DNA of 64,000 nucleotides, taken from assembly GCF_001678665.1 (NCBI RefSeq), contig NZ_LZRP01000008.1:62001-126000 (forward strand), read 5' to 3'. The position numbers were made by a program, and so were the translations under genes. This document shows, one piece after another, positions 1 to 6,439 of the stretch (position 1 is its first letter; each line of letters begins with the position of its first letter). Source of the DNA: Erythrobacter sp. QSSC1-22B (GTDB taxonomy: Bacteria; Pseudomonadota; Alphaproteobacteria; Sphingomonadales; Sphingomonadaceae). Under the pieces are notes generated by a model. It had not been told where the DNA came from. It ran no database searches and saw only the letters and a program-made list of their open reading frames with translations.

Positions 1-1
1 A

Positions 2-298
2 TTACTGATCCGTCACAGCGACACCGGAGAGGGCGTCGGGAGCGATCCCGGCGCCATTTTCATGCGCGCCCTGCAATTGCGCCACCAGCCAGATGCGGAT
101 TGCACTCGCCAGCCCCGGCGGGGTTTCGGCGCGGATCCGCTCGGCATCGATCTGCGCGACCAGCGTACTCAGCGGCAGTCCAGCCTCTTCGGCGGCGGCG
201 TGGAGCAGCTCCCAGAACAGCGGTTCGAGGCTGATCGAGGTGCGATGCCCGAGGATGCTGAGCGAGTGTTTGACCGGTGGGTGATAGGGGGCGGCCAT
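2..298 (-). CDS. Ribbon-helix-helix domain protein (RHH_4-like)
   Basis: The product is 98 residues. The N-terminal half begins with a short strand region (HSLSILGHRTSISLEPLFW) followed by two helices containing EEAGLPLSTLVAQID. This layout matches the RHH_4 family of small putative DNA-binding proteins, which are common in alphaproteobacteria and whose targets are mostly unknown. The ATG at 296-298 was chosen because it lies 13 bases after the fumC stop; longer in-frame starts would sit inside fumC. The close spacing suggests co-transcription with fumC. A role as a repressor is inferred only from the fold. The stop codon is at 2-4, so the gene is complete. Confidence 0.8.
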   Translation of the reverse strand: MAAPYHPPVKHSLSILGHRTSISLEPLFWELLHAAAEEAGLPLSTLVAQIDAERIRAETPPGLASAIRIWLVAQLQGAHENGAGIAPDALSGVAVTDQ

Positions 299-311
299 CG
301 GCTGCGGACTC

Positions 312-1709
312 TCAGTCGCGGTCCGGGCCGAGCATGGCTTCGGGCCGCACGATCCGGTCGTAATCCTCGGCCGAGACATCGCCGCTGGCAATCGCCGCCT
401 CGCGCAGGGTGAGGCCCTGCTGGTGCGCGGTCTTGGCGATGGCGGAGGCGTTGTCGTAGCCGATCGTCGGCGCCAGCGCGGTCACCAGCATTAGCGAATT
501 GGCGACCCCGCGCGCGATATTGTCCTCGCGCGGTTCGAGCCCGTCGAGCAGATTGGCGGTGAAGCTGCGCGCGCCATCGGCCAGCAGCCGAACCGATTGC
601 AGAAAGGCATAACCCATCACCGGGCGGTAGGTGTTGAGCTCGAACTGGCCCTGGCTGTCGGCGAAGGTCAGCGTGGTGTGGTTGCCGAACACCTGCGCGC
701 ATACTTGCGTCAGCGCCTCGCATTGGGTCGGGTTGACCTTGCCGGGCATGATCGAGGAACCCGGCTCGTTCTCGGGCAGCGCCAGTTCGCCCAGCCCCGA
801 GCGCGGACCCGAGCCGAGCAGGCGAATGTCGTTGGCGATCTTGTAGAGGCCCGCCGCCAGCGTGTTGAGCGCGCCGTGCGCGAACAACAGCCCGTCCTGC
901 GCCGCCAGCGCCTCGAACTTGTTGGGCGCGGTCGCGAAGGGCAGCCCGGTCGCCTGAGCGATTGCGGCGGCGATGGCCTTGCCGAACCCCTCGGGTGCGT
1001 TGAGCCCGGTGCCGACGGCGGTGCCGCCCTGCGCCAGCTCGTAAAGCCCGGGCAGTGTCGCCTCGATCCGCTCGATCCCCACCGCGACCTGCCGCGCATA
1101 GCCCGAAAACTCGTCGCCCAGCGTCAGCGGGGTGGCGTCCTGCGTGTGCGTGCGGCCGATCTTGACGATGCCTGACCAGCTTTCCGCCTTCGCCTCGAGC
1201 CTATCGCGCAAGCTCACCAGCGCGGGCAGCAGCGCCCCCGTGACCTCGCTGGCCGCGGCGATGTGGATCGCGCTGGGCACGGTGTCGTTGGACGACTGGC
1301 TCATGTTGACATGGTCGTTGGGATGGACCGGCTTTTTCGCCCCCAGCACGCCGCCCAGCGCCAGATTGGCGCGGTTGGCGATCACCTCGTTGGCGTTCAT
1401 ATTGCTCTGCGTGCCCGAGCCGGTCTGCCACACCACCAGCGGGAAATGCTCGTCGAGCTCGCCGCGCGCGACCTCCCCGGCGGCGCTGGCGATGGCATCG
1501 GCTAGCCTGCCGTCGAGCAGCCCCTGCGCGGCGTTGACCCGCGCCGCCGCAGCCTTGATCGTCCCCAGCGCGTGGACCATCGGCAGCGGGATGCGCTCGT
1601 CGCCGATGCGGAAGTTCTGCAGGCTGCGCTGCGTCTGCGCGCCCCACAGCTTGTCGGCAGGAACGGCGATGGCGCCAAAGGCGTCGGTTTCGGTTCGGGC
1701 ATCGGTCAT
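312..1709 (-). CDS. fumC: Class II fumarate hydratase
   Basis: The 465-residue product is the normal length of iron-independent fumarase, which interconverts fumarate and malate in the cytosolic TCA cycle. It begins with [21 protein letters not shown], carries the active-site stretch [20 protein letters not shown], and has the superfamily signature [11 protein letters not shown] in the C-terminal third. The ATG at 1707-1709 gives the standard N-terminus; the open frame continues upstream but without family similarity. The next gene on the same strand is the RHH protein. Close relatives in the superfamily (aspartase, argininosuccinate lyase) differ in the N-terminal motif, so the assignment is secure. 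Confidence 0.95.
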
Positions 1710-1864
1710 GGGGTAACCATAGCCGGGCGAGGGAGGATGGGGCAATCGCCTGCGGCGTCGCAGCGCGCACGGGTCGGACCTATCTTGTCCGCGCGAGGTC
1801 ACGTCCTCCTCCGGTATAGGGCGGGTCAGTGACGGCCCCGGCTGCTCGTCCAGGGAGGCCGCGC

Positions 1865-2185
1865 ATGGCCTGGCTTGCACTCGTCATCGCCGCACTGTTC
1901 GGAGTGGTCTGGGTGTTCTCGATGAAACAGTCGGCGGGCTTCACCCGGCTGTGGCCCTCGGTAGTGACCGTGGCCGCGAAGATCGACAGCTTCGCGCTGC
2001 TGTCATGGTCGATGGTGGTGCTGCCGCTGGGCACCGCCTACACGATCTGGACCGGGATCGGCGCGGTCGGCGCGTTCATTCCGGGCATCATGGCCCTGGG
2101 CGAATCGGCCAACCCGCTGCGAATAGCCGCCGCGCTGATGATCGTCGGCGGGCTGGTGCTGATGAAGCTGTCGAGCCCGGCGTGA
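1865..2185 (+). CDS. SMR-family (SugE/Gdx-like) membrane protein lacking the conserved Glu
   Basis: The 106-residue protein has four hydrophobic segments and aligns end to end with SugE/Gdx guanidinium exporters: [12 protein letters not shown] at the start, [15 protein letters not shown] after helix 1, [17 protein letters not shown] in helix 3 and [13 protein letters not shown] before helix 4. In the family, residue 13 is an invariant glutamate that binds protons and substrate. Here codon 13 is GGA (Gly), one base from GAA. Proton-coupled export by the usual mechanism therefore looks impossible, unless the protein acts with a partner subunit. No second SMR gene is adjacent. The ATG at 1865 was chosen by alignment; the frame is open from 1829. 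It is transcribed divergently from fumC. Confidence 0.85.
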
Positions 2186-2293
2186 CGTGCCAAGCAACCG
2201 TCCGCTTTCGAGAGGAAGCCGATTAGAAGGCATCGTCCATTTTTGGGGTGGATAGCTGCCGACCGCTTTTGGCTGACAAACCGGGAAAAGGGA

Positions 2294-2704
2294 TCATGGA
2301 CGGCAAAATTCACGCATCATATTAATCACACGCTGCTTATCACGATTCCAAGACTCAGATGGCGACACGTCGATGAGGGGGGAGATCTGTCGATTAATAT
2401 ATCCGGCATTGCCAAAATAGGCCAACCTCCAGTCTCGGCAGTTCCTTTGCTCTATTGCACGGTCTTCTAAGATTTTTATATCCTCATGCCTTGTATCTTT
2501 GGCGATGGCAGCGATAATGCTATCAACTCCAGCGATTGGGCCTTGAAGAATCTGACTGAAATAACGATCCGTCGCAATCAGAGCGCCGGAAACATTTGCC
2601 GCCCCGTTTTTGCGTTTGGAAGCATTAACTATATCGGCCAGTTCTTCTTCTAATAATTCATGTTCTAGCTGGTGGGCGCTCACATATAAGATTGATTTTA
2701 TCAT
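2294..2704 (-). CDS. BLUF-domain blue-light sensor protein
   Basis: The 136-residue protein is almost entirely one BLUF domain, which binds FAD and signals blue light by rearranging hydrogen bonds around the flavin. The expected key residues are visible: Tyr7 in SILYVS, an Asn near position 33 before VSGALI, Gln51 in FSQILQG, DTRHEDI near 70-76, and Trp92 in DWRLAYFG. About 30 residues follow the domain, with no recognisable output module, so it is a short BLUF protein that presumably acts on a partner protein. The gene and its flanks are clearly more AT-rich than the rest of the window, which suggests horizontal acquisition. The ATG at 2702-2704 places the first strand correctly. Confidence 0.9.
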   Translation of the reverse strand: MIKSILYVSAHQLEHELLEEELADIVNASKRKNGAANVSGALIATDRYFSQILQGPIAGVDSIIAAIAKDTRHEDIKILEDRAIEQRNCRDWRLAYFGNAGYINRQISPLIDVSPSESWNRDKQRVINMMREFCRP

Positions 2705-3183
2705 AGCGCCCTTCAATGGCAAAAAGTCTTCGTATCGATAACATTCCGATTGCGGCCCCTTTGGTGAGCAATCAGTCTAGAACTACTGCTATACAGCGGT
2801 CAAAATAAAATATTTGGATCATCGCCAGTCAGGCCATCTTTCAAGGGTAATCGACGACATTACGGACGGGCAGGCAGGCTTGACGCCAAAAGCCTAAGTG
2901 AAGGAACGCGAGGTTTCTGAAAAATTGGAACGCTCGGTTCCACGGCCGCTAATGGGTCGTTTGCTGACTGTCCGTTTTTGGCAATGAATCGCGACAAGCG
3001 GTCGGCCTCTGTATGGCGAACACCTCGTCATTGCGAGGAGCGGAAGCGACGCGGCAATCCATTGTGTGACTGCGGACAGTCGCAGCCGCCGGGTCGGGCG
3101 CAAAGCGTCTGCCATGGATGGCCACGCCGCCTGCGGTGGCTCGCAAAGACGAGGGTACCGTTTTCTCCCTGAAGCAGGCCAAA
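2705..3183. other. Gene-free, partly AT-rich intergenic region
   Basis: No convincing coding frame is present. The part next to the BLUF gene (about 2705-2900) is AT-rich and should hold its promoter, but I see no clear -35/-10 pair. The part from 3026 is GC-rich and contains the degenerate dispersed repeat listed separately. Confidence 0.6.
3026..3151. repeat. Degenerate inverted dispersed repeat (CGTCATTGCGAGGAGC type)
   Basis: The left arm at 3026-3062 reads CGTCATTGCGAGGAGCGGAA and continues AGCGACGCGGCAATCC. The right arm at 3114-3151 is its imperfect reverse complement (ATGGATGGCCACGCCG ... CTCGCAAAGACG). The strings CGTCATTGCGAGGAGC and GACGCGGCAATCCA occur in a dispersed palindromic repeat seen in many proteobacterial genomes. 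A related half copy lies at 16138-16157. Short reading frames across this element are artefacts. Confidence 0.7.
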
Positions 3184-3969
3184 TCATGGCTTGATCGCTG
3201 CGCCCTCGAGTGTCGCCCACAGGCTCCAAAGCTTCGCAGCGATGCTCTCCAGCGCGGCGAAATGCGCCCCGCCGACGAGGTTGATCCGGGTCACATTGGC
3301 GCCGCCCGCTGCTTCCAGCCTGATCGCCGCCTCCGGATCCACGACCTCGTCCTTCGAGCCGTGCAGCACCACCACCGGCTCGGTGACGCTGGCGATGGCC
3401 GCGAGGTTGTCATAGCGGTCGGGCAGGAGTGGGCGCAGCACGGCCGGAACCTGATCGGCAAGCCGCGTGAAGGCGCCGAGCGTTGCGACGCCCGTCACCT
3501 CATGCCGCGCCGCGAGTTCGAGCGCGACCGCGGCGCCCAGCGAGAAGCCGAACAGATAGGTCCGTCCTGCGAGATTGAGTTCGCGGGCCTTTGCGAGCCA
3601 GGCTTCGCCATCGCTGAAGAGCCCTTCTTCGGACGGCTGGCCGGGATTGTCGCCATATCCACGGTAGGAGGCGATCAGCACGCCGTGGCCGCCTTGCCGC
3701 AAGGCTTCCGCCCGGCGAGCCATGACCAGCTGGTTGTAGTCGCGGCCGTGAAAGACAACGACCAGCCGGTCATTGCCCGTTTCGGGTGCCCAATAATACC
3801 CTGCGAGCACAAGCCCGTCGGCGGTGACGGCCTGCAGCGGCAAGGGCGGCTCGCCTTCGAATTCGACCTCGGTGTCCGCGAGCGAAACGGGCGAATAGAT
3901 CCGGTCGCGGATGACATCGGCCTGCGCCGGAGCCGCCAGCAGCACGAGCAGGGCAATCGCGAGCCTCAT
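3184..3969 (-). CDS. Secreted alpha/beta-hydrolase
   Basis: The 261-residue protein starts with a cleavable signal peptide (MRLAIALLVLLAAPAQA) and then shows a serine-hydrolase fold: VVFHGRDYN as the oxyanion-strand region, SYRGYGDNPGQ, the nucleophile elbow GFSLG with Ser143, the acid in HGSKDEVV (Asp207) and the histidine in GGAHFAA (His236). It resembles BAAT/ABHD13-like peptidase-type hydrolases. The substrate cannot be told from sequence. It lies 38 bases downstream of phbB on the same strand and could be co-transcribed with it. The location is periplasmic by the signal peptide. Confidence 0.85.
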   Translation of the reverse strand: MRLAIALLVLLAAPAQADVIRDRIYSPVSLADTEVEFEGEPPLPLQAVTADGLVLAGYYWAPETGNDRLVVVFHGRDYNQLVMARRAEALRQGGHGVLIASYRGYGDNPGQPSEEGLFSDGEAWLAKARELNLAGRTYLFGFSLGAAVALELAARHEVTGVATLGAFTRLADQVPAVLRPLLPDRYDNLAAIASVTEPVVVLHGSKDEVVDPEAAIRLEAAGGANVTRINLVGGAHFAALESIAAKLWSLWATLEGAAIKP

Positions 3970-4007
3970 CCAATCGATCCTTCAGAACGGCGCGACATTC
4001 GCCACCC

Positions 4008-4730
4008 TCAATACATATGCTGCCCGCCGTTGATGCTCATCGTCGAGCCGGTGACGAAGCCGGCGTCCTCGCTGCACAGGAAGCTCACCCCGCGGGCGAT
4101 CTCGCTCGCCTGGCCCAGCCGGCCGACCGGGATCTTGGCGACGATCTTCTCCAGCACCGGTTCGGGCACCGCGGCGACCATGTCGGTGTCGATATAGCCC
4201 GGTGCGATCGCGTTGACGGTGATGTTGTAGCGCGCGCCTTCCTGCGCCAGCGCCTTGGTGAAGCCGTGGATCCCGCTCTTGGCGGCGGCGTAATTGACCT
4301 GGCCGTACTGCCCCGCCTGGCCGTTGATCGAGCCGATGTTGACGATCCGCCCCCAGCCGCGCTCCTTCATCCCCGGGAAGCAGGCCTTGGCCATGGTGAA
4401 ACAGCCGCCCAGATTGACGCGCATCACGTCGTTCCAGTCGTCGTAGCTCATTTTGAGCAGAGTGCCGTCACGCGTGATCCCGGCGTTGTTGACCACCACC
4501 TCGATCGCGCCGATCTCCTCGGCGATCTGCGCGCAGCCAGCAGTGGCGGCCTCGTGATCGCCGACATCGAAGCGATAGACGGGAATCCCGGTTTGGTCGC
4601 TGAAGGCGCGCGCCGCTTCGGCATTGCCCGCGTAATTGGCGACCACGCGAAAGCCGTCGGCCTGCAACATTTCGCACACCGCGCGTCCGATCCCCCGGGT
4701 TCCCCCGGTTACAACTGCCACTCTTGCCAT
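4008..4730 (-). CDS. phbB: Acetoacetyl-CoA reductase (NADPH)
   Basis: This 240-residue short-chain dehydrogenase reduces acetoacetyl-CoA to (R)-3-hydroxybutyryl-CoA for polyhydroxybutyrate synthesis. It has the nucleotide-binding TGGTRGIG at 8-15, NNAG at 81-84 and the catalytic set Ser134, Tyr147 and Lys151 in NIGSINGQAGQYGQVNYAAA. The GQAGQYGQVNY stretch is characteristic of PhaB rather than of FabG. The ATG at 4728-4730 is preceded by a purine-rich stretch (GAGAGAGG). phaZ lies elsewhere in the window, and no PHA synthase is present here. Confidence 0.92.
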   Translation of the reverse strand: MARVAVVTGGTRGIGRAVCEMLQADGFRVVANYAGNAEAARAFSDQTGIPVYRFDVGDHEAATAGCAQIAEEIGAIEVVVNNAGITRDGTLLKMSYDDWNDVMRVNLGGCFTMAKACFPGMKERGWGRIVNIGSINGQAGQYGQVNYAAAKSGIHGFTKALAQEGARYNITVNAIAPGYIDTDMVAAVPEPVLEKIVAKIPVGRLGQASEIARGVSFLCSEDAGFVTGSTMSINGGQHMY

Positions 4731-4789
4731 GATTATCCTCTCTCTCCATTCCCCAGCGTCAAGTTCTAGGTGAAAGCGGAACCGGGACA

Positions 4790-4812
4790 AGAAAAACCCC
4801 GCCGGAGCGGAG
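4790..4812 (-). terminator. Intrinsic terminator after the exported protein gene
   Basis: Read on the minus strand, CTCCGC-TCCG-GCGGGG forms a 6-bp stem (one G-U pair) followed directly by TTTTTC. It lies between the stop of the 4857-5618 gene and the start of phbB, so phbB probably has its own promoter. Confidence 0.6.
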
Positions 4813-4856
4813 CTTTCGGAGTGGATTGTGCAACGGGTGAACCCGAATGGCGTGGA

Positions 4857-5618
4857 TCAGAAGCGGAACTGGGTTCCGACATAGACCGCCTGATTGTCCT
4901 CGATCCCGTCGGTGAGCGGTGCGAGGCGATCGCGTTCCTGCGACAGCCGCACGCCGGCGGTGACATCGAGATTGCGCGTCACGCGGTAGGAGCCGCCGAC
5001 ATCGACGCTCTGTTCATCCAGCGATTCGAGCGGGCGCGAGGCGCTGACCGGCAGATCGTCCCGTTCGGATGCGATCCGCGGCTGGAACCGGCTGGGCTTG
5101 CCCTGCGGCTGCGAGGGGCGGAATTCCGCGAGATCGGGCATGGCGATATCGCGCACGCCCGACAGGCCGGCAATCGGTTTGGGCGCGGGCTGGGTGAAGC
5201 CCTGATAGCCGCGCGCGATGCCGAGATCGTAGCGCGTTGGCGCCAGCGCCAGCAGCGGCGAACCGCGGCCCGCCTCGGTGGCGCCGTCGATGGTGTTGCG
5301 AACCGAAATCGCCCGCGCGGTTGCCTGATCGACGCGGACCGCGACGGTCAGCGTGCGATCCTTGCGCCCGGGCCGCGCCGCGGGGGTGAAGCGCAAGGCA
5401 TCGAGCCCGACCGAAGAGGCCAGTTCGCTCATCAGCGAGGCATCCATCCCAGCGGGGGTGAAGGGCATGAATTCGAGATCGGCGCCCGATTCGCTCGCGG
5501 TGGTGGGAGCACCCACGACTGCAGCGCCGGTGGAGGGAAGCGTGAGCGCAAGACCGGCGCCGACGAGCAAGGCGGCCGTAAGCCGCACCTTTCCGCCATT
5601 ACCTGTGCTGCGTTTCAT
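4857..5618 (-). CDS. Exported protein of unknown function, possibly outer-membrane beta-barrel
   Basis: The 253-residue product has a positively charged start and a hydrophobic segment (VRLTAALLVGAGLALTLPS) typical of a signal peptide. It ends in a strand-like tail finishing with Phe (QAVYVGTQFRF), preceded by RNLDVTAGVRLSQERD. This alternating pattern and the terminal aromatic residue are typical of outer-membrane barrels. The middle (about 150-200) is proline-rich. I do not recognise the family. The ATG at 5616-5618 was chosen because it directly precedes the signal peptide; the open frame runs further upstream without protein-like composition. It is transcribed divergently from the DUF3576 gene. 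Confidence 0.7.
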   Translation of the reverse strand: MKRSTGNGGKVRLTAALLVGAGLALTLPSTGAAVVGAPTTASESGADLEFMPFTPAGMDASLMSELASSVGLDALRFTPAARPGRKDRTLTVAVRVDQATARAISVRNTIDGATEAGRGSPLLALAPTRYDLGIARGYQGFTQPAPKPIAGLSGVRDIAMPDLAEFRPSQPQGKPSRFQPRIASERDDLPVSASRPLESLDEQSVDVGGSYRVTRNLDVTAGVRLSQERDRLAPLTDGIEDNQAVYVGTQFRF

Positions 5619-5986
5619 GATCTTCGTGCCCCGTGAAACCTGTTGTGACGAAAATTTCGTCTGTATCTCGACCCGCATTAGACCACTCAGGCCGTTAACG
5701 GTTCCTGAAGTTGCCATCTTGCGAGTCTTTCTCGATGCGATTGTTAGGAAGATGACAAAAGGAGAGCCAGCTTTTCCACAGCCCGGAGGCAACAAATCTG
5801 CCGACTGTTGCCGGCTCTCCACACCGGGCGGTCCCGGGAACGCAACGCAGGCACTTGCCGGCAAAGCGGAATTCAGCGGCTATTCAGCGCCCGGGCTCCT
5901 AATTCGAGCGCCGGGGAAGGTGCACGATCCCTTGCCCGTCGCGCCTGGGCGTCTATAGGACGCCATAAGACAGACCAAGGACCAGC

Positions 5987-6439
5987 ATGACCCTTTATCC
6001 CGCAAACCGCCGCTCCGCTCTCCGCATCGCCACCGCCTTCGCCGCGGTGGCCACGCTGGCGGGTTGCGCCGGGAACGAGCGTCCACGGGCCGATCTCGCC
6101 GCGGCGCAGGTCAACACCATCGGCGTCAATTCCTACCTCTGGCGCGCTTCGCTCGACGCGGTGAGCTTCGCGCCGCTGCTTCAGGCCGATAGCGCCGGCG
6201 GGGTGATCGTCACCGACTGGTACTCCAATCCGGCCAATCCGGGCGAGCGGGTCAAGCTCACGGTTTCGGTGCTCGACACCGATCTGCGCGCCGATGCGCT
6301 GCGCGTCGCCGCCAGCCGCCAGGTCGCGCAGGGCGGTGGCTGGATCGAGGCGCCGGTTCAGGCCGCCACGGTGCAGAAGCTGGAAGACATCATCCTCACC
6401 AAGGCACGCGAATTGCGCCGCCAGGCGATCGCCAGCTGA
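5987..6439 (+). CDS. DUF3576 lipoprotein
   Basis: The 150-residue product has a lipoprotein signal peptide with lipobox TLAGC (Cys27). After it comes a compact domain with NTIGVNSYLWRASLDAVSF and VIVTDWYSNPANPGERVK, characteristic of DUF3576, a family found mainly in alphaproteobacteria and commonly directly upstream of leuS. The gene is 77 bases ahead of leuS on the same strand, so they are likely an operon with lptE and holA. Its biochemical role is unknown; an envelope role beside LptE is plausible but only inferred. Confidence 0.9.
   Translation: MTLYPANRRSALRIATAFAAVATLAGCAGNERPRADLAAAQVNTIGVNSYLWRASLDAVSFAPLLQADSAGGVIVTDWYSNPANPGERVKLTVSVLDTDLRADALRVAASRQVAQGGGWIEAPVQAATVQKLEDIILTKARELRRQAIAS

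Follow-up and report, generated by a model that had tools for sequence, protein, structure and literature searches.

The sugE gene in the window, the 64,000-nucleotide stretch of Erythrobacter sp. QSSC1-22B DNA analysed here, is most probably a guanidinium exporter gene of the Gdx/SugE type that is decaying under relaxed selection in this lineage, rather than a new kind of transporter. In the preliminary description it was said not to resemble a decaying gene. Seven residues never seen in its relatives, a lean toward non-synonymous change and a broken-looking copy in the congener G006 suggest instead that it may well be one. Glu13 and six other constrained positions have changed, as we envision it under relaxed selection. 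The protein, if still made, would insert as an SMR-like subunit, with a lysine and an aspartate now placed in the portal-forming helix 2. Having lost the two central glutamates by which guanidinium and protons are carried, it would be unable to bind either, and would do nothing useful at present. The frame may still be open because too little time has passed for a stop or a frameshift to arise.

Both the open reading frame and the GGA at its codon 13 are as first described (Table 1), and the original assignment to the SugE/Gdx branch of the SMR family is borne out. The product scores 82.9 bits against Pfam PF00893 (SMR), above the cut-off of 23.7, in a match that spans residues 1-89 of 106 and profile positions 1-89 of 93. 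It aligns without gaps over residues 1-104 with its best PDB matches, 6wk5_B and 8vxu_A, the latter of which we take to be a Gdx-type structure like the 6wk5 set; both chains carry Glu opposite Gly13. 6WK9, from the same PDB set as 6wk5, is Gdx-Clo (PMC9574504). The top NCBIfam model is SugE (NF008512.1/PRK11431), whose score of 113.1 bits lies under the equivalog cut-off of 126, a shortfall that need not be caused by the lost residues. Guanidine riboswitches are common upstream of Gdx genes and are not required there. None was found within positions 1-6000 of the window, nor was any found at gathering score in the loci of 20 relatives, so that the absence of one at the window gene does not discriminate. 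Plasmid records with some match to the gene number 2463, the top identity being 68.3%. To judge from these alignments, the gene is a member of the SMR family by descent, and its predicted product lacks the residue that defines the Gdx subtype; with the central Glu missing, we do not count it among the guanidinium exporters.

Table 1. Features of the window at and around sugE
Feature	Positions	Strand	Remarks
fumC (class II fumarase)	312..1709	-	divergent neighbour of sugE; anchors synteny with G038 and G006
AGGGAGG, ribosome-binding-like stretch	1852..1858	+	6 nt 5' of the sugE ATG
sugE/gdx-type SMR gene	1865..2185	+	106 aa; ATG at 1865, stop 2183-2185; open frame; Gly in place of Glu13
codon 10, Ala	1892..1894	+	in 167 rows: Gly 164, Ser 3
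codon 13, Gly	1901..1903	+	GGA; GAG in both syntenic sister copies (G038, G006)
codon 17, Val	1913..1915	+	in 167 rows: Ala 163, Ser 4
codon 39, Lys	1979..1981	+	Met in 152 of 167 rows; charged in no row
codon 41, Asp	1985..1987	+	uncharged in the other 159 distinct genes
codon 51, Val	2015..2017	+	Arg (97) or Lys (68) in all 165 of the 167 rows that cover it
codon 73, Pro	2081..2083	+	third helix; no Pro in any of the 165 covering rows (of 167)
BLUF blue-light sensor gene	2294-2704	-	
short repeat element	3025..3107		core GTCATTGCGAGGAGCG
alpha/beta hydrolase gene	3184-3969	-	

Position 13 is as invariant among relatives as had been claimed, and every orthologue examined has Glu there. Of the 476 relatives confirmed in the contig scan, the best 80 were compared, and all 80 have Glu. 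After genus and family stretches were added, 181 of 183 loci matched, and they comprise 178 with Glu (duplicates of one genome included), the window gene twice, and one locus, L087, that ends short of the position; Glu accordingly fills 178 of the 178 rows of relatives that cover it. The family contributed 29 loci and 58 stretches from the top of the list, where 141 of 397 genomes had a match and weaker SMR matches lie outside the rows taken. Codon 13 in the 160 distinct coding sequences (identity 53% or more, window gene included) is GAA in 103, GAG in 56 and GGA in one. When the TM1 motif was sought as a DNA pattern that allowed Gly, Ala or Val at position 13, 20 of 385 class genomes gave hits (3 for the reversed-pattern control), and within that set the window's own hit alone lies in an SMR gene. 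Another of the hits, L193, matches only weakly and in part (37% over 35 columns, E 0.015), with an internal stop and otherwise nothing SMR-like. A widespread glutamate-free Gdx group was considered and is rejected within the sets examined, on the strength of these rows and of this pattern search. In the literature, the titles and abstract openings searched, beside PMC9574504, PMC7695847, PMC8517846 and PMC9860125, mention no natural Gdx without the central glutamate, which is not proof of absence.

The expected consequence of the loss follows from work on Gdx. In the Gdx dimer, guanidinium and the antiported protons bind to the pair of Glu13 side chains, which are called "conserved and essential" (PMC9574504). 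Neutralization of the central glutamates abolished transport by Gdx-Clo (PMC7695847), and E13Q-Gdx serves as a nonfunctional, transport-dead control (PMC8517846). Given that the Glu13 pair is needed in Gdx, a homodimer with Gly13 should not transport guanidinium, and the window protein is, by this analogy, almost surely unable to do so.

The missing acid could in principle be supplied by a partner, and the preliminary description had offered a heterodimer subunit as one possibility; paired SMRs are indeed known in all four subtypes (PMC9574504). In the genome, scored 100% complete, no other SMR gene and so no such partner was found, however: at E <= 10 the PF00893 profile finds the window gene alone, and a search with the protein at E <= 1 returns just one further piece, of 30% identity inside a 790-aa frame (E 0.2). 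The Arg/Lys bias of the window protein, with loop limits set by the analyst, is -2, as in 6 of 159 relatives (-1 in 151, 0 in 2), and so indicates no clear fixed topology. A subunit of this kind is thus extremely improbable.

The change at position 13 does not stand alone. The rest of its helix and the other motifs, at first thought intact, are altered as well: G10A and A17V fall in the same helix, and A10, G13, V17, K39, D41, V51 and P73 are all absent from the 167 rows of at least 53% identity (Table 1). When never-seen residues are counted by leave-one-out, the seven of the window gene place it second among 160; 158 of the 160 carry 0 to 3, and L125 alone is higher, with 9. The window protein is also alone among the 160 in having two charges inside membrane cores besides position 13, under helix limits set by the analyst, and one other has one. 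In Gdx-Clo, M39 and F43 belong to the hydrophobic membrane portal in helix 2 (PMC7695847); the window protein has K39 in place of M39 and retains F43. Other residues with described roles in Gdx (PMC9574504) are all present, namely W16, S42, which is part of the stack that holds the glutamate, Y59, W62 and the GXG fulcrum in the form G64-I65-G66 (GIG). The protein retains 44 of the 48 columns of at least 90% conservation. The window gene thus departs from four such columns; six of the 160 genes depart from more, and four of those six form a group sharing its own departures. By total conservation score the window gene lies outside the top ten, and its end branch ranks 35th of 159.

L125 (G069:C71:4716-5027) merits a remark of its own. 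It is a strongly divergent Gdx in which Glu13 is present, and its never-seen residues include I65T in the GIG fulcrum, W3L and R86H. It is possibly a second decaying Gdx copy.

A set of altered residues of this kind could also be envisioned as a refunctionalised SMR, in which a pocket rebuilt through G10A, E13G and A17V, together with K39 and D41, would move, with no protons involved, a substrate that is uncharged, anionic or lipid-like, a mode of transport supposed for the Arn lipid SMRs, with their Asn at the Glu site. The open frame, the ribosome-binding-like stretch, Tyr59, Trp62 and the GIG fulcrum are in keeping with this, and positions 10, 13 and 17 should by their spacing lie on one helix face; lipid SMRs, moreover, often have Asn for Glu and take noncationic substrates (PMC9574504). 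Those same proteins, however, have a hydrophobic helix 2 (PMC9574504), against K39 and D41 here; the genome has no second SMR gene; the TM1 pattern found no other SMR in the 385 class genomes with Gly, Ala or Val at position 13; and drift alone would give the observed pattern of change. We consider such a transporter unlikely, and it is distinctly doubtful that the protein is a glutamate-free member of the Gdx branch which, with Lys and Asp in helix 2, serves some other substrate as carrier or channel, independently of protons. A functional exporter whose proton- and substrate-binding acid has moved elsewhere, for example to Asp41, is very unlikely. The new Asp adjoins the pocket residue Ser42 of the glutamate-holding stack (PMC9574504), but adjacent residues would face different sides of a helix, and a moved acid leaves K39, P73 and the loss of the basic residue 51 unexplained.

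Decay gains in plausibility from the same site in congeners. Full-length relatives of the window gene are rare in the genus: of 60 genomes scanned, 11 have some match at E <= 0.001 and 4, the window's included, have a full-length relative of at least 62% identity, the remaining matches being a fragment in G006 (residues 1-39) and sequences of 27-38% identity only in the other 6. G038 has the window's gene order, RHH - fumC - sugE - short-chain dehydrogenase, and its syntenic sugE (L083/L183), in the same place between fumC and the dehydrogenase gene, encodes a protein identical to the window's at 84 of 106 residues. Unlike the window copy, it has Glu13 and no never-seen residues at all. The neighbouring fumC was found in 26 of the 60 genomes, with that of G006 nearest to the window's (identities over 465 residues of 424 for window-G006, 419 for window-G038 and 430 for G006-G038).

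In G006, sugE (L086/L182) has a normal start beside fumC, from which it diverges, and Glu13 (GAG). Homology ends after about 36 codons; past the break the frame meets no stop and reads into unrelated sequence. This copy seems, from its sequence, to have been cut short, in an assembly that is 79% complete and 6% contaminated and with the break about 142-150 nt from a contig end. Three other genomes (G135, G282 and G388) were considered as holding further pseudogenes of the family and dropped, their internal "stops" being the ordinary ends of slightly shorter proteins.

The sister copies bear on two further ideas about codon 13. Since both have GAG, the GGA of the window is a two-base difference, which argues against a single-base slip or a read error. 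The earlier suggestion of a recent loss of function by a single base change therefore survives in its first part, which fits decay, and falls in its second. A sequencing or assembly error as the source of Gly13 would agree with its occurrence in one genome only. Against such an error stand, besides the two bases, six more never-seen residues scattered along the gene and the intact frames of its neighbours, which make it highly improbable.

Counts of private changes point in the same direction as the residues. In the window/G038 pair, taken with 158 outgroups, sugE shows means of 7.6 non-synonymous (N) and 4.7 synonymous (S) changes in the window and 4.0 N and 8.2 S in G038; N exceeds S with 133 of the 158 outgroups for the window gene and with 9 of 158 for its sister. 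For fumC, with 23 outgroups, the figures are 8.6 N and 19.1 S in the window and 12.0 N and 26.1 S in G038. Per codon, sugE and fumC have similar synonymous rates on the window lineage (about 0.045 and 0.041), and sugE has some four times the non-synonymous rate of fumC. Set against the polarised N:S of fumC, sugE yields a Fisher p of 0.098 on rounded means; taken one outgroup at a time, p has a median of 0.109 and lies below 0.05 for 34 of 158. With the unpolarised fumC count the median is 0.086, and 54 of 158 lie below 0.05. The window sugE lineage thus leans non-synonymous, as drift predicts, and the contrast with fumC is only suggestive, the trend being consistent but its significance not firm in a gene this short. 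Pairwise dN/dS between the window and G038 copies is below 1 and depends on the method, at 0.28 by NG86 (highest of 7 genes) and 0.073 by YN00 (fourth of 7).

A three-way comparison over codons 1-36 gave private N:S of 6:2 for the window, 3:5 for G038 and 2:0 for G006 in sugE, against 22:43, 16:31 and 11:49 in fumC (Fisher p 0.048 for the window). It is not relied on as the main evidence, since in fumC G038 and G006 resemble one another more than either resembles the window, whose count may include changes from their common branch. The fumC count repeated with outgroups yielded a weaker contrast than this comparison.

How far drift alone can go was gauged by neutral simulation from the G038 gene. 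With 13-16 changes, the analyst's estimate of the count on the window lineage, it yields 8.4-10.2 N, 3.7-4.5 S and 5.2-6.4 never-seen residues, the last figure being 4.1 for 10 changes and 7.9 for 20. The pattern of change in the window gene needs no selection. The same runs of 13-16 changes leave a 65-70% chance of no stop, indels left out, and because neutral change so often keeps the frame free of stops, the open frame of the window gene is no strong evidence for function.

Downstream of sugE, the G038 locus is without the BLUF and hydrolase genes that the window has at this place. The BLUF gene (PF04940, 74.5 bits) lies in a stretch of 44-49% G+C, against about 63-70% around it; with this low G+C and its absence between sugE and the dehydrogenase gene in G038, it was perhaps acquired. 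The alpha/beta hydrolase gene, absent at the G038 site, has a likeness in G006, where a 49-nt piece past the break in the broken-looking sugE matches the 3' end of this hydrolase gene at 80% identity (E 2e-7). A 21-nt piece of G006 between that break and the hydrolase-like stretch resembles the repeat element of the window insignificantly (E 2.1). The core of this repeat, GTCATTGCGAGGAGCG, occurs at 11 places in the genome at no more than one mismatch (reversed control 0), and a stretch 3' of sugE in G038 resembles the element at 74% over 85 nt (E 6e-9). The repeat is perhaps the breakpoint of an insertion downstream of the window sugE.

If the gene is decaying, it is a modest case from nature of a way in which SMR exporters may disappear, the essential acid being lost from a frame that is still open; across sister species the gene is seemingly cut short in one (G006) and kept in another (G038). 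A family-based annotation ("SugE, quaternary ammonium efflux") would ascribe to the organism an exporter that is probably missing. If the window protein were shown to work, the rule that Gdx cannot do without its central glutamates would be contradicted.

Among known systems, the closest likeness is to the Gdx/SugE exporters. As a single gene, the window sugE resembles those that encode their dual-topology homodimers, and its product shares with them a full-length ungapped alignment, W16, S42, Y59, W62 and the GIG fulcrum; unlike them, it is without the central Glu13, a hydrophobic residue 39 and a basic residue 51. The Arn lipid-flippase SMRs (arnE/arnF) are like the window protein in that the central Glu is often replaced, but the replacement there is Asn, and they suggest that the SMR fold can work without the acid (PMC9574504). 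They are also the most distant SMR subtype, belong to lipid A modification operons and have a hydrophobic helix 2 (PMC9574504), whereas helix 2 of the window protein is charged.
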